A stretch of 64,000 bases of DNA, taken from contig MLAK01000763.1 in NCBI GenBank assembly GCA_001839685.1, positions 1 to 64,000 of the forward strand, read 5' to 3'. This stretch comes from Tritrichomonas foetus (lineage: Eukaryota; Parabasalia; Tritrichomonadida; Tritrichomonadidae). The stretch's first letter is position 1. Each line of letters begins with the position of its first letter. The notes below the pieces were generated by a model. That model saw nothing but the letters and a program-made list of their open reading frames with translations, did no database searches and was not told where the DNA came from. This document shows, in pieces, positions 8,291 to 51,353 of this stretch. The position numbers and the translations under genes are program-made.

Positions 8291-8426
8291 ATAATTCGTC
8301 AAAGTCTTGATTCATGACAGAGATTTACCTCTGATAACAAAAAAGAACAATTTTTTAATAGTACAGAACATTTTTCGAATAACAATCAGAAATGTTTGCA
8401 TGAGAATTTTAGTGATTTTTCAGCTG

Positions 8427-8533
8427 TTTTCGAAATAGAATTTCTTATCCGTTTTCTCTTTCAAAATACAATTTGGTTTTTTCGAAATTAAATAATTATT
8501 TTTCGAAATTGAATAATTTTTTCGAAATAGAAT
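8427..8533 (+). repeat. Left subterminal array of TTTCGAAA motif
   Basis: Four copies read TTTTCGAAATAGAAT or TTTTCGAAATT, at about 8427, 8477, 8499 and 8517. The same motif occurs inverted (ATTTATTTCGAAAAAT) on the far side of the deubiquitinase-transposase gene. Such inverted subterminal arrays commonly serve as transposase-binding sites. Confidence 0.5.
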
Positions 8534-8835
8534 TACCAAACCGATAAATTTTTCAAAATAAAATTATTTTATTTCGATTTAAAATATCTAAAAAATTGAT
8601 TTTTTTCTATGAGTTTTCTCAAAAAGTTCAAAAATTGAATCGCGAGTTGAGCGAACCTTAAAATCGCGTCGAAAAATTTATATAAATCAACAAAGTAAAA
8701 AAAAATAGAATGTTAAATTAATGTGTTCTTCTTTGTGATTCATGAAAAATGAAAAAACGAAATGAGATTATTAGTTTTTTGGAAAAAATGAAAAAAAAAA
8801 AGATATAATTTATTAAATCATAATCTGCTATCTTT

Positions 8836-8933
8836 CACGGGGGAGGTGGGGGTATTTGAGTGGGGAGAATGCAGGCGCTTTTTTTTTTGGGGGGGAGGGA
8901 GGTGATAACTGGGGTTATTTTAGGGCGGGGGAA
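8836..8933 (+). other. G-run island, G-quadruplex candidate
   Basis: Seven or more runs of 3 to 7 G in under 100 bases (for example GGGGGAGGTGGGGG and GGGGGGGAGGGAGG), in a region otherwise poor in G. The runs are spaced closely enough to fold as one or two G-quadruplexes on the plus strand. It lies between the left motif array and the 3' end of the 9106-11061 gene. Confidence 0.65.
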
Positions 8934-9105
8934 TATATTGAAATTATTTGATGTATGATATGTGATATGAAAACGCAGCAATGAAAATATATAAGGTTTT
9001 AGAGATGTATAAATAATGAATAAAAATAGTAATAAAAAGAAAAATTTGATTAGATTGTAGTTGTTTATTATGAATGTGTGATAAAGTTGTTGATATTGTT
9101 AATCA

Positions 9106-11061
9106 TTAGATATCTTCTCGATTGATTACTTTGGAAAAAACTTTAGTTGAAACATGTGTCATCACTTTGCGAGTTTCTGTTGGGTCGATGTTATTGAAAC
9201 AATTAGCAATTTTTTGATATAATTCGATTTCGTTCAACCATTCTTTTACTTTTTTTTTGATAATGCTCTTCCAATGGCCAAATATGAGTTCAATCGGGTT
9301 GAGCTCAGGCGAATACGCCGATTTGAAAATAGCTATATAATTGCCTTTCTTTACGACGTTTTCGATTTGGCCGTGGATCCGAGCGTTATCAAGCCAGAAA
9401 ACTTGCATGAATTTATTAAACAACTCACTGTTAACAGTTCCAGGAACAAGCAAACAATAAGACATTCCATTATTAGAGATTGCTGCAATAGCAGAACATC
9501 TGTAAGACTGTGGTTTGACGTTAATAAATGCTTTTTCACCTTTCTGAGACCAAGCACGTCTTCGAATATTCCCAATTTGGATAGAAACTTCATCAACAGC
9601 AGTCCAAACAAAACCTTCTGTTTGTATTGCAATTTGACGCGTTAATTCACGTAAAGATTCTGTTGAATTTGCTTGTAATTCTGAATGTATCATTTCAGCA
9701 TAATGAGGAGTAATTTTTGATTTCCTCCCTCTTGCATATGGCTTCATTTCTATAGATTCTCCTTTTTTCAGAAGATTTAACAACATTTTACAATTTCCTA
9801 ACTTGATTCCACTTTCTGCCGAATATTGTATAGGAGTTTTTTGGTTTCCATTTTCTTGATATAAACGAGTTAGTTGTTTTCTAGCTTCATTTGTTGTCTT
9901 TTGATATGATCGTTTCTCTTGGGTATTTTCTTCTGCTGGAGTTTCTTGTGATGTCATTGGAGAATCAGGAAATGTATGTAAAATAGGTAAAGATAAATTT
10001 GTGTTTTCAACTGGCGTTAAACTTGATGCCTGCGTAGTTTCAAGGGCGGGGGCATTTCGTAAGAATGTTTGCAAAGCTTCTTCCTGCCGAGTATCTAAAA
10101 AATTAACCTGCTGCATTGATGTGATTGCTCTTGATGCGGCTGGAGTTGATGCGTTTTCAGTATTATTAATTCCTTCTGTTGTTAAAAATAAATTGTTTAC
10201 TTGGTCTTTTCTGATATGACTTGCTAAATAAGTCAAACTTTGTAATGTAATTTTTCCTTGACCAAAATAAATGCGTTGTTCATTGCATTCTGTCACCAAC
10301 AAATCATTGAATGTGTAGTATTTGTTTGTAGGAAGTTCAGCCAGATGAGTTATATAATGTCCAGAATTGGGATTATTTATTTCATTTGTAGTATGATCAA
10401 TGACTCCGTATAAAACATAAGTATTTCCTTGATATATGATTTCTTTGGAATAAGTCATTGGGGTTGTATTTCTATGAAAATTTTCATCATCAAATTCTGT
10501 TCTACGAATCAAAAATAATAAAATTGAAGGAGATTTAATGATCCTAATATTTTGAGATATCCTTTCAGGTCCTTCACTAATGATTAGGTGCTGTGCAGTT
10601 GCGACTTTATCAATATGACCTTGTAGATCATCAATATTAGGGTTGACATTTTTAAATATGAATTTTTCGATTGCTGTATTCTCTTCTTCTTCCATTCCAT
10701 TATAGCAATAAGTTGTGATTTGTTTTTCTATAAGAAACATTTTGTATATTTCATTTTTGTCTTCGCCATTAGTATTAATGCATTCTAGAAGTTTGAGGAG
10801 AAATTCATGAGGGTCTTTTTGCTGTAAATCTTCAATTGATTTGTCAAATTTCATTACTTTAATAAATAAGTTTTCTAAGTCATCTTTGGTGATAGTCTCA
10901 GCACTTGTAAAAAATTGGCGAAGAATTTCTCCTGTTTCCCCTTTGAAAGGAACTTTAACAATTTCTTGTTGAAACTTGGGGAGATTTAGGAGCATTTGCA
11001 GTACGGATGCAGCAAAACAAGAATTGCCAGTGTTTCTGATTCCGATTTTATGTCGAAGCAT
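9106..11061 (-). CDS. Deubiquitinase (USP/C19)-Tc1/mariner-type transposase fusion
   Basis: A single uninterrupted ORF of 651 residues. Residues 5-260 form a USP ubiquitin hydrolase: the Cys box IGIRNTGNSCFAASVLQ places the nucleophile at C15, the His box SGHYITHL at H235, and YYTFND supplies N252/D253. Residues 300-385 are a Ser/Thr/Pro-rich linker. Residues about 387-475 look like paired helix-turn-helix domains (ESGIKLGNCKMLLNLLKKG; SELQANSTESLRELTRQIA). The DDE core follows, with D490 (TAVDEVSIQIG, RRRAWSQKG), D558 (FWLDNARIH) and E591 (SPELNPIELIF), 32 residues apart for the last pair. The catalytic motifs of both halves are present. The spacing between HTH and first Asp, and between the first two Asp residues, is shorter than usual for IS630/Tc1 proteins, suggesting in-frame losses. 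TCATTTTA lies 3 bases upstream of the ATG. Ubiquitin removal by the N-terminal domain is expected from family knowledge; its role in transposition is unknown. Confidence 0.88.
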   Translation of the reverse strand: MLRHKIGIRNTGNSCFAASVLQMLLNLPKFQQEIVKVPFKGETGEILRQFFTSAETITKDDLENLFIKVMKFDKSIEDLQQKDPHEFLLKLLECINTNGEDKNEIYKMFLIEKQITTYCYNGMEEEENTAIEKFIFKNVNPNIDDLQGHIDKVATAQHLIISEGPERISQNIRIIKSPSILLFLIRRTEFDDENFHRNTTPMTYSKEIIYQGNTYVLYGVIDHTTNEINNPNSGHYITHLAELPTNKYYTFNDLLVTECNEQRIYFGQGKITLQSLTYLASHIRKDQVNNLFLTTEGINNTENASTPAASRAITSMQQVNFLDTRQEEALQTFLRNAPALETTQASSLTPVENTNLSLPILHTFPDSPMTSQETPAEENTQEKRSYQKTTNEARKQLTRLYQENGNQKTPIQYSAESGIKLGNCKMLLNLLKKGESIEMKPYARGRKSKITPHYAEMIHSELQANSTESLRELTRQIAIQTEGFVWTAVDEVSIQIGNIRRRAWSQKGEKAFINVKPQSYRCSAIAAISNNGMSYCLLVPGTVNSELFNKFMQVFWLDNARIHGQIENVVKKGNYIAIFKSAYSPELNPIELIFGHWKSIIKKKVKEWLNEIELYQKIANCFNNIDPTETRKVMTHVSTKVFSKVINREDI

Positions 11062-11063
11062 AA

Positions 11064-11071
11064 TAAAATGA
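11064..11071 (-). promoter_or_regulatory. Initiator-like motif of the fusion gene
   Basis: TCATTTTA on the minus strand, 3 bases before the ATG at 11061. It matches the trichomonad initiator consensus TCA(Y)WT, so the transposon gene appears to carry a host-type start signal. Confidence 0.45.
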
Positions 11072-11372
11072 AGTGTTGATAATTTTACAATGAATAAAAA
11101 AATTGAATGTAATTTATTAATGCGTTTAGATTAAGATTGAATAGAATTTCTTCATACGATATGATTAAATTAAATGCATTTTTCATCAGTTTAGTTTTAT
11201 CATACTATCAATAATATATTCACTTTCTATCTTTACATTTACCTCTAAATCTTTTTTTAGATCTCAGTTTGATATATATAAAGTAATGGCAATAAAAAGA
11301 ATTTATTACTAAATAAAAAAATTTTATTTTGAAACAAAAATTGGTTAGATTTGTAAACCTTTCAAGAACAAA

Positions 11373-11600
11373 GAATTTATTTCGAAAAATGGGGAATTTA
11401 TTTCGAAAAATATAGCGGTTAAAATTTTATTTCGAAAAATCGAGAAAGTAAAAAGAAACTTATAGAAACCTTTTTCGATGGGTCTATTTTTTTATCGAAA
11501 AATAAGCTATCGTTCTTTTTTCTTCTGAAAAAGTCAAAAAATTGTGAACAATTTGATTTTTTTTCGAAAAAATTGAATTTATTTATCGAATTCGAAAAAG
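11373..11600 (-). repeat. Right subterminal array of TTTCGAAA motif
   Basis: GAATTTATTTCGAAAAAT at 11373, a close copy ending at 11410 and a third at 11424-11441 are in inverted orientation to the left array at 8427-8533. Looser copies (TTTTTATCGAAAAATA, TTTTTTTTCGAAAAAA) continue to about 11600. Together the arrays bracket a unit of about 3.2 kb with the fusion gene inside. Exact termini and target duplications could not be fixed by eye. Confidence 0.5.
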
Positions 11601-13108: not shown

Positions 13109-15416
13109 ATGGAGCCCATCAATCAGCGAGGACTACCTATTCCAATGATCGATCAATATCGTCAAACTCACCAACATAAATTACGTAATTTCCCCGATAG
13201 AATACAACAACAACAGCGAATACAGCCACAATGATCATATAATCATCAAGCATTTCACGGTGTCGGACAAGGATGGCCTAGGGTCTAATCATATGCTGAT
13301 CAATTTTCTATTCCTCAGCAAGGCTTCGCAGGCCAACAGCTACAACAACAACCAACTAATCGACATGATAATCCTATTCGAAATAGATATAATTTATACA
13401 GTGATAATGATTCTGATTATATTGATACTGATAATAGTGATACTGATGAACATGGACAAGGATCCTTCGATTCAGACAATTTTGAAAACAACGAGAATCC
13501 TCATAATTTTGCTGCTGCTCCCATTCAATTCGATCCGATCAATGACAACCGACAACAACCACATTTCATGGATTGGAAAAATGTCAATCACGATATTAGC
13601 CCACCGATTTTTAACTCATTTCAAAACCAATTCAGAGAGACTCCGAGTAGAGCAAATTTCATTAATTCCAAGAATTTAGTAGTCAGCCAAGTATTTCTAA
13701 CATTAAGTGAATTAAGAAATTTATATCATGCTATTAATTTTGGAACTCCAGATTCCTTCAAATATCTAAGTATAATTCGCGCAAGGGAGAAAGAACTGAT
13801 GCTCTTACACAATTTCGTATACAAATATAATAAATATTATTTGAGGAAAAAAAACAAGGCCGTAGTCCTCTATTATGTGTGTTTTGGGAAATGTGGAAAT
13901 ACGATACAACTTAGCCTTAACGGGGAGATTTTAAAATATGGAAAATTGAATCATTGTTCATGTCCAACCTATGAAAGTTATATTTAGAAAACACGAATCA
14001 AAGCGGAAATGGAATCAGTGCGAAAGACAATTATTCAACAAGCAACCACTACCAATTTGCAACCACAAGAAATTTATTCCAATTATCTTATTAATCGCGA
14101 TTTTCATTCTAAGAGAAACAATAATTCAGTTGGTTCATCAAAGTCGCAATCAGACTGATAAAGATTTAATTTTATATTCTCAATTTTTCGAACGAATAAT
14201 TGTTCAAAACCAACAAGAAATACGAATAAAATGGTTGCGCCAATATATAGTACCAGAAAAAAATTATCTTTTGTTCACAGATCAAATGTTAGAATTATTT
14301 ATCAATTCGCAAGTCTTAATGATTGATGGAACATTCAAAGCAGCACCATCAGAGTTTCAGCAAATCCTTACGATAATGGGAATGAGAAATGATAAGAATT
14401 TCCCATGCATTCATATATATTTGAAAAGACGACAAAGATATACTATTAGGTACTGTGGAACTTGCTTTTATTGTATGTACCACGATGCCTTAACGTAATG
14501 AAAATAATTATTGATTTTGAAGTTGCATTAAGAGAAGCGATCACAGATGTCATTATAAAGAATCCTGATAAATTCCGAAAGGATGTTGAAATTCATGGAT
14601 GCTTGTTTCACTATGTGCAAGCAATTTACCGCAGATTTCGGAGTTTGATCAACAACCCCTCATCTGAACAGAAAACACTGCTAGCTATCTTCCTTGGATT
14701 TCCATATATAGAACCAAATTTTGTCATACAACAGTTTAACCTGATGAAAGACCTAAATTATCAACCATTTGAATCAATGGTGAAATACTATTCAAAATAC
14801 TGGATTCCCAGGATCCCTGAATTTACCCTTTATAATAAATCCCACTCACAAGTATCTACGAACAATGCCCTTGAAAGTTTCCATCGAGATCTCAATAAAA
14901 CTATTCCTGGTGCCCATCCTTGCTTCAGCGCCTCACAGGATGCATTATTTACCACTGCTAACAGAAGATATATTGAATATGAACAAAGGATGTTAAATGG
15001 TTTCGCTCGTGATCATAGATGATACAAATAATCGACCACCCAATAGATTCCAAGCAAGATTTAGAAATACAGAAACATTTCTTTCTCGAATAGCTGAATT
15101 AGTGTTTCAGATAAACGCCATAAATGCAAAACGGAATATAAATGATGATAATCTGAAAGTTCCCAAGCAGAGAGGAAGGCCAAGAAAAAACCCCAAAGAA
15201 ACAGCCAAAGGTAAGAAGAAAAAGCGATCAAAAAAAATACAAGAGCGAGAATTTGAAATCGATTCGACCGTAATAGACTTAATTGATATGGCTTATGATG
15301 ATTCTGTAACCTCTGAGCCATTTTTAGCCAATTGCGATGAGTGGTTCGCTGAAGCCACCGATGATTTCGATATGTATACTGATATTGAGAGCAACAACGA
15401 AAATGAAGAAATTTAA
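13109..15416 (+). pseudogene. MULE transposase relic, FLYWCH type, long Q/N-rich N-terminus
   Basis: Coding sequence starts near ATG 13109 (MEPINQRGLPIPMIDQYRQ). It passes two in-frame stops in a Gln/Asn/Asp-rich leader and continues in four overlapping frame segments ending at about 13987, 14498, 15022 and 15416. Domains in order are a FLYWCH-like zinc finger (YYVCFGKCGNTIQL...LNHCSC), the first catalytic Asp block (VLMIDGTFKAAPSEFQQILT), the second block (IIIDFEVALREAI, then GCLFHYVQAIYRR), the late STNNALESFHRDLNK block, and a basic tail with an AT-hook (QRGRPRKNPKE) and acidic end. At least three frameshifts make it inactive, but the order is intact, so decay is recent. It differs from the other two MULE relics and has no SWIM finger visible. 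Confidence 0.75.
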
Positions 15417-39794: not shown

Positions 39795-41690
39795 TTAAGT
39801 TTTCATGTAAACGTGTATGTCGTCTGGTTCAGCTTTATTGTCACGCTTCTTCTTGTATATCACAATTGCTACAACAATTGCAACCACTACAATCACACAA
39901 ATTACAATCACTATTGAAAATACAGCAGGCGAGATTCCAATTTTATCCCAGAAATCACTATCAGCATCACTATCTGTGTTAGTTTCGGTATCAGTTTCAC
40001 TATAATCAACTGAAATATCACCAGCTGAAGCATCAGTTGGTTTTTGTGTTGGCTCTTTAGTTGGTTCTTGAGTTGGTTCTTTAGTCGGTTCTTGTGTTGG
40101 TTCTTGAGTTGGTGTTGGAGGTGATGGGTTGGAAAATTGAATGTAACCACAAACAACTTTTGGATCTGGGCAAATAATTGTCATTGTATCATTTGCAACA
40201 ATTTCTTGGAATTTTTGTTCGCATTTTACTACCGAACCACCAGCGTGAACAAATAGTTCGTTTCCAGTACACCACATTGGGAAGCATAAAGAAGTTTCTA
40301 AACCACTATCTATGGCGACTGAACAATATGTGTCTTCCTTTCTACCATCGACTGTCACTTGGCGTGGACAGATCGAGTCAGTGGTAAGGAGAGAGAGAGG
40401 AATTCCATCTGCCAACAAGTTTGAAAGAGAGAAATATCGCTCTCCATTTTTATCAGTAAGTGTGAAATATTGATTACAATATTGTTCATATCTACCCATA
40501 CATTTAACCAGATCGTAATATCCTGGGAAGCGATGGTCATAACTACATGATGGTGGATACCCTACATATGTGAAATATTTGCCCTCAGGGAAATAATGCT
40601 TTGGAAAAGATTCTGAAGGTGATTTTGAGAGGAAATCTCTGAATGGTTCTGTTTCACCTAAAATTGACCTATAATCACCATAAGGATATGGTTCAGCTAC
40701 AGAAAAGTCAACATCATACCATCCTGTGTCTTTAAGAAGAGCAAGAGTAAGGTTTGAAATATAGGCGTAATCATAAAAATAGGCAGACATGAGTTCAGTG
40801 AAGTAAGTACGGGATTCTAAATGACAAACAGCTGTACCATGACCTCCTTCATCTTCCATCTCAATTCCAGAACGATGACGATGTCCGTTTACATCAATGA
40901 ATTCTTCAACACCATATTTGGCCTTAACCGCTTCATGAGCCGCTGGTGAATTGAAAATCAATGAATTTCTGGCACGCCCTGGAAAAGTGATATTGATTGG
41001 CACATTTGTATATGGTTGACCGTTTTCGTCGCGCCAATATTGATAGTCGTCTTCCGCAATTCCGAGAACGTGACAGATTTCATGAAAACAAACTTCGAAA
41101 AAGTCTCGCCTTCCAGGAGTCGAAATATCGCTTGGCTCATTTGGAACACTTTGGAGATTGATGTTAATAACGCCTTGAATAGGTCGATGCGTGTTAGCGT
41201 CGTGGGCCACTGATGAAGCTGAAGCTAATGTTGATTTACTGCCAAATGGTCGAGCATAAACGCCAATGTATAAATCTGTATTTTTCATCTCGCTGACTGG
41301 GACTGGATATTCTTCGATTGGAACAACTGGAATTGATTCGGCAGGATCAACTCTGAATGCTCTTGACATAAACCTGGCGACATTTTCAATTGATTGTGTA
41401 ATAATTTCGTATTTCTTTTCTGTCATGATATCACCTTCCACACACTCCTGAGGAGTTCCGTACCAGGTGATCCATTGACCTACTTCGTAGCAACGTCGTG
41501 TGTCTTCTCTATTGTTCATTTCTAAGTAAGTGAAGTCCATATGGACGCGAATATTTTCACGGGTGGCTTTGCCATTGATTACACGTTTTCTGGGAATCTC
41601 GATCAACTTCTTGTATGGTCTAATTTGTCGAGCAAAAGAACCATGCCCGCAAAATTGTCGATGAAAGACAAGGAAAAGGAGAAAGAACAT
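39795..41690 (-). CDS. Leishmanolysin-like (GP63, M8) metalloprotease, membrane anchored
   Basis: 631 residues. It has an N-terminal hydrophobic stretch MFFLLFLVF as a short signal peptide, then a prodomain-like region. The zinc site HEICH (203-207) and the third ligand His290, in GTAVCHLESRTYFTELMSA, have the long insert between them that marks family M8; the ELM segment is the Met-turn. Many cysteines follow (about 390-530). A Pro/Thr-Gln/Lys-Glu repeat (PTQEPTKEPTQ, about 535-560) acts as a stalk. An acidic patch and one transmembrane helix (about 585-608) precede a basic cytoplasmic tail. In trichomonads these surface proteases act in adhesion and host-protein degradation (family knowledge). 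An in-frame TAA eight codons upstream makes this ATG the first possible start. Confidence 0.9.
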   Translation of the reverse strand: MFFLLFLVFHRQFCGHGSFARQIRPYKKLIEIPRKRVINGKATRENIRVHMDFTYLEMNNREDTRRCYEVGQWITWYGTPQECVEGDIMTEKKYEIITQSIENVARFMSRAFRVDPAESIPVVPIEEYPVPVSEMKNTDLYIGVYARPFGSKSTLASASSVAHDANTHRPIQGVININLQSVPNEPSDISTPGRRDFFEVCFHEICHVLGIAEDDYQYWRDENGQPYTNVPINITFPGRARNSLIFNSPAAHEAVKAKYGVEEFIDVNGHRHRSGIEMEDEGGHGTAVCHLESRTYFTELMSAYFYDYAYISNLTLALLKDTGWYDVDFSVAEPYPYGDYRSILGETEPFRDFLSKSPSESFPKHYFPEGKYFTYVGYPPSCSYDHRFPGYYDLVKCMGRYEQYCNQYFTLTDKNGERYFSLSNLLADGIPLSLLTTDSICPRQVTVDGRKEDTYCSVAIDSGLETSLCFPMWCTGNELFVHAGGSVVKCEQKFQEIVANDTMTIICPDPKVVCGYIQFSNPSPPTPTQEPTQEPTKEPTQEPTKEPTQKPTDASAGDISVDYSETDTETNTDSDADSDFWDKIGISPAVFSIVIVICVIVVVAIVVAIVIYKKKRDNKAEPDDIHVYMKT

Positions 41691-44216
41691 TGGTTCGTCT
41701 TGTTTGAATGGTTATCAATTTTCTTACTTTTTGTTAGGTGCCGAACAGAATTTTCATTCATAGGGATAATTTTTATAGTCATAATGAATGAATTTTATCA
41801 ATTCTCATCGATAAAAATTGAATATAATAATAATTATTTCTCAAAAGCATTGAAATAAATCGTTGAAATTCACAAACTATTCATCAGTAATTCAATATTT
41901 CATAAAGAATTGAGAATTCAAATAAATTCATTCATCGTTGTCGAGCAATTCAAAAACAATGAAAATGAAATCTCTCACATTCTCATGTTATGAATCTCTT
42001 TGAACGATTTTTTTACTCCATCGACACGAATGCATATACAAAGGGATAGAGACGCAATATTTTGATAAAAAATTATGGAAAAATGTTCTTTCGACGAAAT
42101 TGTGTTTGACCCAAATTTCATGTATGAAATCCAAAAGTTAGTTAATATTAAATCATTTAGTTCTGTTTATCGTAGTAATTAACCCCCAAATTTCATCTCG
42201 GCGATATGATTAGTCTTTTCGAACGCCGCTCGAGGATATCGTCTAGCATTGCTGATAGAGTTTCGAATATGCATACGCTTTCAGATGCGTTGAAAAAACT
42301 CATTATTTACATAAAGTTTGAATTTGGCGGATTTCGAGATAAAATGCCTTTTCCATATACTTTCTGAGGTGTGAGAAAGACATACTGTGTGAAAAATTCA
42401 ATTCCAGAGGCGCGGGGAAGGATATTTCGAAATATAAACATAATCGAAGTTGATGCGAGTTTTTAGGAAATAAAAGTAAGCATTGAAAGTTATTGATTCA
42501 ATCAGTTCTCTTTTAAAGCTATTGTGCGTGAAAAATCTACATTATGATGGAATTTTTATGATATTTGAGAATCCTAAATTTTCATGCCAAAACATTTCTC
42601 ACAGAAAAGACAAAAATTTCCTTGTGGTGTTTATCGGAGTTATGCTCAATTTTTATAGATTCACCATTTTTTTGGACAATGAAGATGACCAAAATCTTTG
42701 GTTTTCTCAGCAGAAAATGTTTAAAAATTAAATTAAATAAGAGTGCTTCCTCTATTTTCGAGTATGGTTCAACAAGCACCAAATGAAAGATTTCCATTCA
42801 TTGGAAGAAATTTGGTCTTCCTGATGAAAGAATTATTTCTCTCTTTTTGAAATTAATAATTGTGAGAAGTAGAGTCATTTTCTCCGAAAATTAAGAAATA
42901 TCGAAACAATCATATTTGATCCGAAGTTTAGCCTAAAAAAATCTAATTTTTGGAGTGAAAAGATATTTTCCTTTTTGGATTAAAAAAGGAAGTTTGGATC
43001 CACTTGAGAAAAATAAATGTTCCAAACTATTTATGAGAAAAATCGTGTTTATTCGACATCGCTGTTACTATTTCGAGATATAAATGAGAATTTTGATGAC
43101 GAATAAGTCTTGGACCAATTTTTGTGCGATTTTGATTTTGGAGGTTGAAGATTTTTTTTCGTTTTTAGAACTGTTAATCATGGAATTGTTTCCTTTGTAG
43201 AAATTAAAAATTATATTCGCAAACTTCATCACATTAAATGAACTATAAATTTTTGATAAGATGTTGGATTTTCAAATTTATCAAAGTGCTTATATTTTCA
43301 TTCAGGAACATTGCAATAAAAGACTTTTGCGAGCTTGACAATTTCCTATCTGAATTTGATCTCACGATAAAAATATATAAAATATGAAATGATAGTTCAT
43401 ATTTCAGATTTTCAATCATTTCAATTATTTCAATAAGACATAGAATTCTTCTGAATTCATCAGAATATTTTGTTTCTGTTATCGAAAATTATTGAATGAA
43501 AATTGAAATTCCATTTCATATTGAAAATAGAAATAATAATTGTTTTTAAATTTGTGTCTTTCAAAATTTCAATGATTGATACTTTCTGTATCCTCAAAAT
43601 TCATTTATTTCATATCTAATCCACCGTGAATTTTATTCGAAATTATACCGAGATTTTTATCATTCCTCACACTTTTTTTCAAGTGGAAAGCTCTAATTTT
43701 ATCTCAAACACTAGATAAATATAGTTTTATCGAATGAAAGCACATTTCTGATAAACACCACTCATACTTTGAGAAAAACATATCACATGATCTCACAAAA
43801 TACAATCACTTTTTAAATGAAATGAATTAAATAATTTTACTCAAAAAAATTGATTGCATTTCAATAAATATTTTTATTCAAATATATACTCATATTTTCT
43901 TTGACCATTCAATATTCTATTACTCCTATCAAAAATGAAAAAATTGCTATCAATTCCAATGACGGATTTGAATACATTTTGACAGGTGTGACATGTTATT
44001 GACATTTTTTCACATCAACTCTTTTTTCTGGTGTATGTAAAGTATTGAATTATTTGCAACAAAGGGAAAAAATAAAAGGGGAAAAAACTCAACTGAATTA
44101 AACAATTGTTTTTTTCATTGAGTTGCATTCAATTTTTTATTCAATTATCAAAAACTATTTCAAGTTCTATATCTATTACCTCGTCATTTTGAATAGAATT
44201 AAAAAGCACTTTTCTT
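41691..44216. other. 2.5-kb intergenic region with weak coding relics
   Basis: A frame from ATG 42206 runs 53 codons to TGA 42365-42367 and then another 32 codons to TAG. It is less AT-rich than its surroundings and may be a decayed gene. Two similar short strings (EIVFDPNFM near 42100 and ETIIFDPKFS near 42905) hint at a duplicated relic. CACTTTTT motifs at 43670 and 43807 precede the calcium ATPase. Confidence 0.4.
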
Positions 44217-47217: not shown

Positions 47218-47783
47218 AAAGCCATGCTTTAGAAAATAATTAAAATTCGTTATAAATCATATTTCATTTGTTTCCATGTTGTTAGTTTCTTCTCCTTTAG
47301 GAAAAATGGGCAATAAATGGTCAAAGTAGTTTTTAAACGGTCTCTTCTTCTCCAATCCGAAATAAGCTTGATTGTTGTTTTGTTGTTGCTTTTTTGGATT
47401 GGAAAAATGACAAAGAGAATGTGTCTAAGTTCAATTCAATGAAATCACTGAATTAAGAAAAGCTTCTATCATATTGGCAGAGTTGTTTCTCATTTATGTT
47501 GATCAATTTTTAAATAATAAGAACGTTTATTTTAAGAATGAAGTCTCAAATTTGAGAACACATATGGACATTATACATTGAAAAATTTTCTTATCAACTT
47601 TTATTTCAAACTCAAAAAATCACTTTTTTTCACTATCTCCCAATATTTAAAAAGTCCGATATCAGAGAAAAAGTGGAATCATATAAACTTTTTCAATGAT
47701 ATTAACACACTTTTTAAAAGATGTTAAAAAAATTTCATTCTTTAAACATCAAAATTTAGAATTATCAAAAGCGATATTTAACC
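47218..47783 (+). promoter_or_regulatory. Spacer with three CACTTTTT/AAAAAGTG boxes
   Basis: Boxes at 47621-47628, 47668-47675 (inverted) and 47708-47715 lie 70 to 165 bases before the HECT gene ATG. The same octamer recurs upstream of other genes here. The TTATAAAA at the ATPase stop matches the trichomonad habit of a TAAA polyadenylation signal overlapping the stop. Confidence 0.4.
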
Positions 47784-50700
47784 ATGAGTTCGCGCGGAAG
47801 CTACGCTGCAGCAAATCGATTTTCACCAGCAGCTTATAAGCGCATAATTAACGACATCAAAACAAACTCTCCTGGCTTTTCTAATACAAAACGATTGGAC
47901 GGACTTGAGAAACTCGCAGAAACTTTGGCTTTTGCTGAGCCAACACAATTGAGGAACTTCCCAACAACGGAATGTTGCAAAGAAATTGTGAAAATCATTC
48001 AAAATTCGAACGATTTATTAATTTTAACGCTATCAACGCAGTGCATTGTAAATTTGCTCGAATCAATTCCAGACAGTCAAAAGAGTATCGTTAATGCCAA
48101 TTATATTTCGATTGCGAAAGAAAAAATTGTATCCGATAATAAACAAAATTCTGGCCAGAATCTATCCAAATCAATTATCGAAAATATTATCCATTCATTC
48201 TGCACATTAACGAAATACAGAGCAAAAGAAATTGGACAGAATATTGGTGTTAAATTTATATTGGATAATTTTGAAAGAATTAATACGGCTGAAAAGCATT
48301 ATGCATCAATAGCAATGTCCAAATTTACATCATATTTTGTTGCTCCACGCTTTGCGAAATCGTTACCAGTGATTGCCGGTTATTTCGCCTCTAATGATGA
48401 AATTATTGCCAATTATATGATTGACACTTTTACAAATATATTGAATTCTGTTGACTTCTCAGATATTCCACTTGAAGTAGCAGAAGTCCTTTCTGCAGTT
48501 ATTATTTGTATAGAAAGCGCCGAAGTGATGCTTCGCGTTATTGAACTACTTCAAAGACTCACATTTAACAAAAAATTTGCAGAAGCTGTTATTGATAACG
48601 ATTTTAATTTCGCTCATGTCCTTCTTCACAATGATACAGAAATAGAAACAAGCATCGCTCTTGAAAACCGTTCAAACCGACGAAACCGTCAAAATCAAAA
48701 TGATCAAGATAACTCCACAATTACTGAGAATGAGTCAGATGATTCAATCAGCAATGAAACCATTCATGATGAAAATGGATCAACAGCATTTAGAAATAAT
48801 AGTGTAAGTAGTAGTGGTTTCTACAGTGGAAGCGGATTTCGTCGGAGTTTTAGTGGTGGTTTTGGAGGTAACTTTGGAAGTGACTATGGACAAATAAGAA
48901 GAGCTATTCTTCTTCTTATTCGATCATTTTTACCTGTTCCTGATTTTCCAGTTGGTTTTTGGGAAAGTGATCGTGCTGTACCCGATAATTCAGAAAAATT
49001 TGCATCTTTTATTCAAAAATTACTAATTGAACTTGCACTTGATAATTCTGGTGACTTAGATCTAATTTTTGTTTGTCTTGCAATGTCTCTTCAGCTTTCA
49101 CCTTGTGAAGTTCCTCATCAATTGTTCCCATTAATGGTTGTTACTTCAACTGATACAAAATTGGCACCATTTGTACTCTTATTAGCATTAAGTATACCAA
49201 ATAAACAAGCTATTGGAAAATCTGGTCTTGTATCCCATTTATCCATGTTAAACATCACTAATCCGATTATTACTCAATGGTTTTCGCAGAAAATGACAGT
49301 TCTTCGTTCTTTTTGCAATAATCCAACAATTGAAAGACCACCATTGAATTCTTTTGAATCATTTAATGAAATCTTTAAATTTATTGATACAACTGACATT
49401 TCTTCATTTGAATTGCACGCTTCAGGATACATTAACAAGTTTTTAGAGCTGCTTAAAAAGAAATTAAAAGAAGATAAAGATGCATTTCATGAATATGATT
49501 TCTCTAACATTGTTAATAGGCTACATCAATTAATCACATATACTAATATACCTGACCTTCTTGATCCATTCGAAGCAATGAGCCCACAAGAACTTTCTAC
49601 AGGCACCATTATTGTGGATATTAAATATAACAATAAATTATATAAGCATAAAAAGTTCGAAAATACCTCATTAATGGTTGCTATAGAAGCATGGTATAAT
49701 GAAACAGTTCTTCATGTAACAACAAATGATCTTTTAAACGCTGCACGACATTCAGGAAGGTTTGGACAGCTCATTTCTTTAGAAAATGCAGGTAGTATTA
49801 ATTACACACATATCGGACTGCTACATAGAGCATTTGGAACCAAAAGATATCGAAGGTTTTCATTCAAAATGGATCTAAAAACTTATTCAGCAAATGATTA
49901 TATGTTTCAAGCAATTGCACGAAATCTTCCAACACCTGAATATTGGCCTTTAATAGTTCCAGAAATCGAATTAATCAATGAAGAACTAAATAATATAACA
50001 GAATTACTTGTACCAAGTGATAAAATTCCAATTAAACCTATTTTTGAACTCCTCAAAATGATTCACAACTTAAAACCATCATTAGATATTAAATGTCTGG
50101 ATTTAGAAAATGCTTTGTATCCACACTTGATGTCATTCTTTCTTGATATTGGCCTTTTTTCACCAGCTATTCAAATTTCCTATCATTATCCGTTTTTATT
50201 CTCTTTTGAGTTTCGTTCTTTTGTTTTTAGAATGATTGCATCTGATTTTTATTCATCTTTATCGTTTGCCCAGAAAACCTTATTCAACAATTCTGAAAAA
50301 TTAAGAAACGGTCGAATTTTTAATCATTGTACTATTCATAGAAACTCTTTATTTGATGATGGCTTTCTTCTGATGAATAAAATCGCAAGTGGACCCTTAC
50401 AATTTGATATAAGCTTTGATAATGAAGCTGGTTTTGGAATTGGTCCAACAAAAGAATTTCTTTCTCTTTTTGCCAAAGAACTCACTCATAAATCCCACAA
50501 AATGTGGCGTACAGATGATACTGAGAGAGAATATTCATGGACTAAAATTGGTCTCTTTCCATTTTGTAATGCTGATCCTGAACTTTTTTACGTTTTTGGA
50601 ATACTTTGTGCAAAGGCGATAAACATGAATACAGTTTTACCGATTCCTTTAAGTGTGGAGTTCTTTAAATTCATTCGTGGTGATCGTTTAACAATGGCTG

Positions 50701-51353
50701 ATATTGATCAGGATTATGATAATGCATTAAAGAACCATGAAGGCCTATATGGACTCACTTTTCTGCTTCCAGGTACTACAATTGAATTAAAACAAAACGG
50801 CGGAAACATTGAAGTTGACGAGTCCAACGTGAATGAATTCGTTAAACTTGTAAATGAGTTTACATTTGGATCAGAATTAGAATTAATTCGGACACGATTC
50901 ATTGAAGGATTCTCAACAGTTTTTCATCATAATGCTTGGAATCTTTTAGATGCAAGAGAATGGAGAAGACTCATAGCAGGTGAAGATGTTTCAATCACTA
51001 TGAAAGACTTAAAAGATTACGTCGAAATTTCACATGGATACCATAAAGATTCTCCACAGATTTCCATGTTATTTGAAGTGCTTACGGAGTTCGATAATAG
51101 TCAAAAATCATTATTTGTAAAATTCATTACAGGAAGTGAAAGGCTTCCAATTGGCGGTTTAGCTTCTTTGCAACCACAACTTGCAGTAGCAAAACGGATT
51201 GATGATAGTGTTGATAATCCAGATGATTCACTTCCATCTGTGATGACTTGTACAAATTATTTCAAACTTCCTCCTTGTTCGTCAAAGAAAATGATGAAGG
51301 AAAAAATATTGAAGGCAATCACTGAAGGACAAGGTGCATTTTTGTTGACATAA
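47784..51353 (+). CDS. HECT-type E3 ubiquitin ligase, TRIP12/UPL3-like
   Basis: 1189 residues. The N-terminal 300 residues are armadillo/HEAT-like helices (ITLSTQ-type repeats, SKSIIENIIHSFCTLTKYRA). An acidic, Ser/Gly-rich insert occupies about 300-375. More helices follow, then the HECT domain from about 850: FDNEAGFGIGPTKEFLSLFA, then FPFCNADPELFYVFGILCAK. The C-lobe contains TGSERLPIGGLASLQPQLAV and the catalytic Cys1156 in LPSVMTCTNYFKLPPCSSKK, ending EGQGAFLLT. The C-lobe wording and the armadillo-like N-terminus are those of TRIP12/UPL3/UFD4-type ligases, which act on ubiquitin-fusion and N-degron-type substrates and chromatin proteins (family knowledge). Substrate in this organism is unknown. 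The ORF is intact, and three octamer boxes lie upstream. Confidence 0.92.
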   Translation: MSSRGSYAAANRFSPAAYKRIINDIKTNSPGFSNTKRLDGLEKLAETLAFAEPTQLRNFPTTECCKEIVKIIQNSNDLLILTLSTQCIVNLLESIPDSQKSIVNANYISIAKEKIVSDNKQNSGQNLSKSIIENIIHSFCTLTKYRAKEIGQNIGVKFILDNFERINTAEKHYASIAMSKFTSYFVAPRFAKSLPVIAGYFASNDEIIANYMIDTFTNILNSVDFSDIPLEVAEVLSAVIICIESAEVMLRVIELLQRLTFNKKFAEAVIDNDFNFAHVLLHNDTEIETSIALENRSNRRNRQNQNDQDNSTITENESDDSISNETIHDENGSTAFRNNSVSSSGFYSGSGFRRSFSGGFGGNFGSDYGQIRRAILLLIRSFLPVPDFPVGFWESDRAVPDNSEKFASFIQKLLIELALDNSGDLDLIFVCLAMSLQLSPCEVPHQLFPLMVVTSTDTKLAPFVLLLALSIPNKQAIGKSGLVSHLSMLNITNPIITQWFSQKMTVLRSFCNNPTIERPPLNSFESFNEIFKFIDTTDISSFELHASGYINKFLELLKKKLKEDKDAFHEYDFSNIVNRLHQLITYTNIPDLLDPFEAMSPQELSTGTIIVDIKYNNKLYKHKKFENTSLMVAIEAWYNETVLHVTTNDLLNAARHSGRFGQLISLENAGSINYTHIGLLHRAFGTKRYRRFSFKMDLKTYSANDYMFQAIARNLPTPEYWPLIVPEIELINEELNNITELLVPSDKIPIKPIFELLKMIHNLKPSLDIKCLDLENALYPHLMSFFLDIGLFSPAIQISYHYPFLFSFEFRSFVFRMIASDFYSSLSFAQKTLFNNSEKLRNGRIFNHCTIHRNSLFDDGFLLMNKIASGPLQFDISFDNEAGFGIGPTKEFLSLFAKELTHKSHKMWRTDDTEREYSWTKIGLFPFCNADPELFYVFGILCAKAINMNTVLPIPLSVEFFKFIRGDRLTMADIDQDYDNALKNHEGLYGLTFLLPGTTIELKQNGGNIEVDESNVNEFVKLVNEFTFGSELELIRTRFIEGFSTVFHHNAWNLLDAREWRRLIAGEDVSITMKDLKDYVEISHGYHKDSPQISMLFEVLTEFDNSQKSLFVKFITGSERLPIGGLASLQPQLAVAKRIDDSVDNPDDSLPSVMTCTNYFKLPPCSSKKMMKEKILKAITEGQGAFLLT

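Follow-up and report, generated by a model that had tools for sequence, protein, structure and literature searches.

Proteases of the ubiquitin and SUMO kind sit in several unrelated kinds of transposon, and their role there is treated as conjecture in those parts of the literature that we consulted. The Kaonashi elements of plants are MULEs with SUMO/Ulp1-type proteases. According to the consulted sections of PMC2836005, which discuss ubiquitin in transposition, Ginger1 carries C-terminal OTU or Ulp1 domains, Mutator carries Ulp1 and Helitrons carry OTU; those of PMC9741609 describe VTD and OTU deubiquitinases in Helentron/Helitron elements and assays of VTD members. The same sections of PMC2836005, citing Gladyshev and Arkhipova (2009), also name a Trichomonas vaginalis protein, XP_001314237.1, in which a transposase_11 domain (PF01609) and a Peptidase C19 domain (cd02657) are combined. 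An earlier note on the locus studied here had named no precedent for a C19 deubiquitinase fused in frame to an IS630/Tc1-type transposase; the wider suggestion that no fusion between a C19 deubiquitinase and a transposase was known is not supported in view of this T. vaginalis protein.

The literature searched, which covers few subscription papers and preprints, yielded no description of a Tc1/mariner element with a C19 domain. Transposition assays are well established for the Tc1/mariner superfamily; Mos1 and Sleeping Beauty have a TA target and, to our knowledge, carry no USP. In the parts of the relevant studies that we consulted, DNA transposons are given as about 30% of the Tritrichomonas foetus KV-1 genome in a main text without the word mariner (PMC11415386), a study of Tc1/mariner elements in T. 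vaginalis is without the word ubiquitin (PMC4021607), and two C19 transcripts of T. foetus are mentioned, TRFO_12536 not being named (PMC9203502).

Here, we describe a transposon of T. foetus that resembles the T. vaginalis protein in uniting a C19 deubiquitinase and a DNA transposase in a single trichomonad protein. The two differ in their transposases, Transposase_11 in T. vaginalis and IS630-Tc1-mariner (DDE_3) in T. foetus, the former protein being compared by its published description alone; a search of the T. foetus assembly for PF01609 gave zero matches at E <= 0.01. As far as the consulted sections describe them, Ginger1 and Mutator likewise join a cut-and-paste transposase to a ubiquitin/SUMO-type cysteine protease domain, but they belong to other transposase superfamilies, use other protease families and, in Ginger1, carry the protease at the C-terminus. 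Helentron/Helitron elements, on the same partial basis, share the presence of a deubiquitinase domain inside a transposon ORF, but they are rolling-circle RepHel elements and their domains are of the VTD/OTU families, not C19 USP. By profile and by fold, the T. foetus element shares the paired helix-turn-helix (HTH) units and the DDE/D RNase-H core of Mos1 and Sleeping Beauty.

The fused reading frame of the window

The window, that is, the whole 64-kb stretch of T. foetus DNA analysed here, contains the uninterrupted 651-residue frame that the earlier note had described; it lies on the minus strand, which the note had left unsaid, and comprises 651 codons with zero N and zero stops (Table 1). 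A random sequence of the same base composition would stay open over this length with a probability of about 5e-23. The residues listed for the two domains (C15, H235, N252 of a TFND motif, D490, D558 and E591) are all found where they had been placed, and the Pfam searches proposed as a check returned both UCH (E 8.8e-22) and DDE_3 (E 4e-15) above their curated cut-offs. The HTH-like helices were borne out in part: the first HTH is complete, and is the sole HTH unit left whole, whereas the second is without its last helix. We take N10 of the USP domain to be the oxyanion position. The 13 bases AACACTTCATTTT occur once in the 64-kb window, both strands considered, and are also present 5 and 6 bases 5′ of the start codon in lineage B and in C226 (see below); they resemble the trichomonad initiator.

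Table 1. Position of the fused frame, its domains and the surrounding element in the window.
Feature	Position	Strand	Basis or remark
Decayed element, approximate extent	8421..11500	-	
3′ terminal inverted repeat (TIR), CAGCTGTTTTCGAA	8421..8434	+	2 mismatches to the TIR of the active element
Fused ORF, 651 aa, lineage A copy: C19/USP, linker, HTH, DDE_3 core	9106..11061	-	
DDE_3 catalytic core, residues 489-603: D490, D558, E591	9253..9597	-	PF13358
In-frame absence of 12 residues relative to the 725-aa copies, between residues 554/555	9399..9400	-	
In-frame absence of 65 residues relative to the 725-aa copies, between residues 480/481	9621..9622	-	
First HTH, residues ~391-432	9766..9891	-	Aligned with helices 388-429 in the AlphaFold model of P0001
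Ser/Thr/Pro-rich linker, residues ~291-384	9910..10191	-	46% identical between lineages (90 codons), the lowest conservation of all parts
USP/UCH domain, residues 6-262: C15, N10, QKD box at 81, H235, N252	10276..11046	-	PF00443 and boxes aligned with host UCH domains
AACACTTCATTTT, 13 bases, 3 bases 5′ of the ATG of the fused ORF	11065..11077	-	

Several features indicate decay. With the missing 65 residues, the second HTH has lost its last helix and the DDE core the segment leading up to its first catalytic Asp; the missing 12 correspond to the helix that precedes the second catalytic Asp. The match to CAGCTGTTTTCGAA is by itself at chance level, with 12 TIR-like matches at <=3 mismatches found against 8.1 expected; it coincides, at 8421, with the end of the window's alignment to the intact element described below (element B). 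The TA expected outside this 3′ TIR is absent there, and no 5′ TIR was recognised for the window copy; its homology to element B ends near 11500, and that to C226 already near 11475. The frame is thus open but probably does not encode a working transposase, and the window copy is best read as a diverged and probably immobile copy of the element that still encodes an intact-looking USP.

An intact element in several copies

The assembly that holds the window (63.7 Mb in 1064 contigs) carries an identical 725-aa fused ORF, letter for letter, on eight contigs with different flanks; since this assembly has many N gaps, the identity of the copies may be overstated through repeat collapse. The protein encoded is identical to P0001 (725 aa, TRFO_12536 / USP domain-containing protein), and a ninth contig, C826, bears it shortened to 686 aa. 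Together with an 860-bp 5′ fragment on C393 (99.9%), these nine copies make up lineage B. The window copy and C226, 94.9% identical over 1365 bp, form lineage A, and C580 represents a third, decayed lineage with stops and gaps, 85% identical to B at the DNA level over 907 bp.

The earlier note had asked whether the junction at the linker might be an assembly chimera and whether homologous copies consistently lack one half. A chimera is ruled out, as both halves stand in one frame in nine further contigs and in the window, which belongs to a second lineage. Nor is either half consistently missing: even the decayed C580 keeps the remains of both in the same order. C393 and C226 are uninformative on the other half, because the former is a 5′ fragment and the latter runs into an N gap. 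Searched with the DDE half, the genome yielded, beyond the fused loci and C580, just weak stop-bearing fragments at C438, C615 and C124. Ten of the 74 DDE_3 matches in the genome are the fused copies, and none of the other 64 lies closer than about 5 kb, judged by eye, to the UCH matches listed. The in-frame fusion of a C19 USP to an IS630/Tc1-type transposase that had been reported from the window therefore recurs in this trichomonad, its junction being the same in several copies, and we regard the existence of the fused element as practically certain.

Extended outward from the eight identical ORFs, the alignment of the copies holds as far as sharp edges, outside which zero columns are shared. 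The left edge, TA followed by CAGTCGTTTTCGAATTGG, is present in 9/9 copies; the right edge, CGAAAACGACTG, was found in five of the nine loci, each time with TA after it. The terminal repeats correspond to CAGTCGTTTTCGAA, the TIRs having a 14-bp identical core. Element B measures about 3.3 kb, and the copy with only 2 N (3285 bp) contains no other ORF of >=100 aa. The 725-aa ORF has zero Met between residues 273 and 595, so that no AUG in 274-594 could yield a transposase that lacks the USP and yet retains the DNA-binding domain. For want of a suitable internal Met, the transposase apparently exists solely as a fusion, and the USP looks like an obligatory part of it.

Short copies that share the ends of the element

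The TIR pattern has 48 matches in the genome, against 0 for a reversed control. Fourteen further TIR pairs were extracted (L039-L052, e.g. G000:C340:23957-24713); 13 of them delimit non-autonomous copies of 754-758 bp, which form a MITE-like family with 97.2-100% identity, and one delimits a 1600-bp relative. Each of the 14 is bordered by TA at left and right, and the ends themselves match those of the fused element at 91-99% identity. Compared with the full element, a middle stretch of the short copies is just 76-79% alike and another stretch has no match; since their inside differs from B in this way, they are not simple internal deletions of present B copies.

One short copy, L041, lies in a repeat, and its joined flanks gave 37 genome matches, of which 35 span the junction. 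Five of these empty sites were fetched, and each contains a single TA at the junction, against two in the filled site; duplication of TA is thus documented in sequence, against the empty site, for one short element that shares the ends. The same search with the joined flanks of one full-length copy recovered these two flanks and, in addition, seven further matches, of which six cover one side; the seventh spans the junction at 80% and lies inside the 1600-bp element. From the TA pairs and the L041 empty sites, it follows that these ends are recognised by a transposase that duplicates TA and that has recently mobilised short copies, and from the shared ends we infer that the fused transposase was the mover. 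At another locus (L013, G000:C281:104819-104899), two TIR starts of the same orientation are separated by 65 bp. Element B apparently inserted there into a TA within the left end of a short-copy-like element; the right side is lost in an N gap.

The transposase half

A profile built from seven sequences matched the Sleeping Beauty SB100X chains (4.7e-12) and the Mos1 chains (9.9e-10), and the NCBIfam IS630 model gave 6.8e-20, yet below its own cut-off; a match to HTH_32 in P0001 was also below cut-off. D552, D632 and E665 of P0001, which correspond to D490, D558 and E591 of the window, are invariant in 7/7 aligned proteins. The second Asp and the Glu are separated by 32 residues in both P0001 and the window copy, and by 34 in P0003, a protein described below. 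Canonical Tc1 and mariner transposases have 34 residues between the second Asp and the Glu/Asp.

The AlphaFold model of P0001 has a mean pLDDT of 53.6 overall and is better in the transposase half than in the USP half, which is too poor for a claim on its fold; the Foldseek and VIA-align results therefore bear on the transposase half alone. In that half, three-helix units were seen at 388-429 (block pLDDT ~67-92) and 449-498 (56-75), in addition to an RNase-H-like core. Mos1, SETMAR and Sleeping Beauty hold the top ranks in both comparisons, retroviral integrases and the remaining DDE transposases being placed lower, and the Mos1 chains align by VIA-align from model residue 383-385 onward. With a DDE/D triad in an RNase-H-like core, an N-terminal paired HTH and, in lineage B, TIRs and TA, the element is, on these predicted and sequence features, an IS630-Tc1-mariner DNA transposon.

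The USP half and its possible origin

UCH/C19 (PF00443, E 6.1e-24) is the sole Pfam family over cut-off in the N-terminal half of P0001 in a search at E <= 10, with no Ulp1 or OTU. The Cys, QKD and His boxes align with those of host UCH domains, and the third residue, of the D/N type, is N252 in the window copy. USP28 and other USP chains match this half by sequence (best 1.3e-05). Many USPs carry a CxxC pair in their fingers; the element USP has none.

At least 143 UCH matches are present in the genome, which makes a host donor of the USP plausible. Nineteen of these loci were fetched, of which 15 show the boxes or most of them and entered the tree; L071-L074, short or without a Cys box, were left out. 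Aligned identity between the element USP and the 15 host domains is 17-22%. In the tree of these domains and two element USPs, the element pair is joined at 100/100 on its own long branch, and none of the 15 is its supported sister. A protein search with residues 1-300 returned the element's own two proteins and nothing else.

A full-length search among 5.8 billion proteins, which reaches relatives sharing short exact words, gave two matches, both of T. foetus (the window ORF and P0001), and a search of viral contigs with the same reach gave no homologue. The 441-aa protein P0003, encoded on a public contig of 1514 bp, has a DDE_3 domain and is 30% identical to P0001 over 322-725, linker included. 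By comparison with the fused element it begins in the linker, its contig being too short to show an upstream USP.

Lineages and constraint

The proteins of lineages A and B are 64% identical, with 44% amino acid change in the USP, and the catalytic residues are kept in both. Since dS is about 2, and thus saturated, the NG86 dN/dS ratios between A and B are rough and just their direction is safe: 0.163 for the USP (288 codons; codon bootstrap 0.08-0.31), 0.239 for the linker (90 codons; 0.10-0.47) and 0.068 for the DNA-binding and DDE parts (268 codons; 0.04-0.11), with 34, 35 and 18, respectively, of 200 bootstrap replicates giving no usable value. Third codon positions differ most in every part. 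Taken in this rough sense, the ratios indicate that both halves have been under constraint between the two lineages.

Proposed function

We propose that the element acts through a single fused protein whose USP protects the transposase or the transpososome from ubiquitin-dependent turnover, a statement that we hold, as a whole, with a probability of roughly 0.55. By homology to Mos1 and Sleeping Beauty, the transposase part would bind the TIRs through its paired HTH units, and the DDE RNase-H core would cut and join DNA. A USP would be present on every transposase molecule, to judge from the lack of an internal AUG for a complete transposase. The predicted USP may strip ubiquitin from the transposase itself or from its partners in the transpososome, and this deubiquitination would prevent proteasomal turnover.

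Self-stabilisation and action at targets would both fit the anatomy of the element. The main rival is that the USP acts not on the transposase but on chromatin or repair proteins at the site of insertion or excision (e.g. ubiquitylated H2A/H2B or PCNA), and we consider it rather doubtful. The fusion would deliver the USP to DNA through the DNA binding of the transposase, and the consulted part of PMC2836005 reports a proposal that transposon-borne Ulp1/OTU domains activate repair factors during or after transposition; compared by eye, the flanks of the copies have TA alone in common, which says nothing on chromatin. It appears less probable still that the USP is no active peptidase and instead binds ubiquitin, mediates dimerisation, or was captured once and is carried along as a tolerated passenger. 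Its faster evolution relative to the transposase (dN/dS 0.16 vs 0.07), its divergence from the 15 host domains and its lack of a CxxC pair would agree with such a role, but C15, N10, the His and Asn positions and the QKD box have been kept in both lineages despite the extent of amino acid change, whereas decay would be expected of a passenger at a dS of about 2.

For the window ORF, one may also imagine a domesticated host gene, an immobilised copy whose frame has been maintained for the sake of the deubiquitinase once the transposase had been disabled. The frame has indeed stayed open despite two whole-codon deletions and an unrecognisable 5′ end, but such deletions may be chance in a young relic, and dN/dS of the USP against C226, the nearest relative of the window copy, is 0.50, a weak constraint as might be expected of relics; domestication is, in our opinion, highly improbable. 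Protection of the transposase from turnover remains our preferred reading for the element. As the element is a compact and recently spread Tc1/mariner with a 754-bp TA-flanked donor and a single fused protein, the reason why transposons carry deubiquitinases becomes testable by one active-site change.

A second, unrelated kind of C19-bearing transposase in trichomonads suggests repeated capture. It is conceivable, although we lean against it, that trichomonad hosts hold transposition in check by degrading transposases in a ubiquitin-dependent way, and that unrelated superfamilies for this reason each captured a C19 domain as an obligatory counter-defence required for mobility.

Other features of the window and of the genome

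Overlapping short frames were observed at 13260-14498 (+) of the window, one with a stretch MIDGTFK... which, we presume, recalls MULE-type transposases; a Pfam scan of 13289-13987 gave zero matches at 1e-4. A 638-aa frame at 39795-41711 (-) has a leishmanolysin-like Peptidase_M8 domain (E 1.2e-25). At 47760-51353 (+), about 37 kb from the fused ORF, a 1197-aa frame contains a HECT ubiquitin-ligase domain (E 4.4e-66), probably a coincidence. Elsewhere in the genome, 30 places (e.g. C30:40658-40852) show the same sub-threshold DDE_3 match of 24.8 bits and represent a high-copy family, 25 of them lying within a 446-aa open frame.
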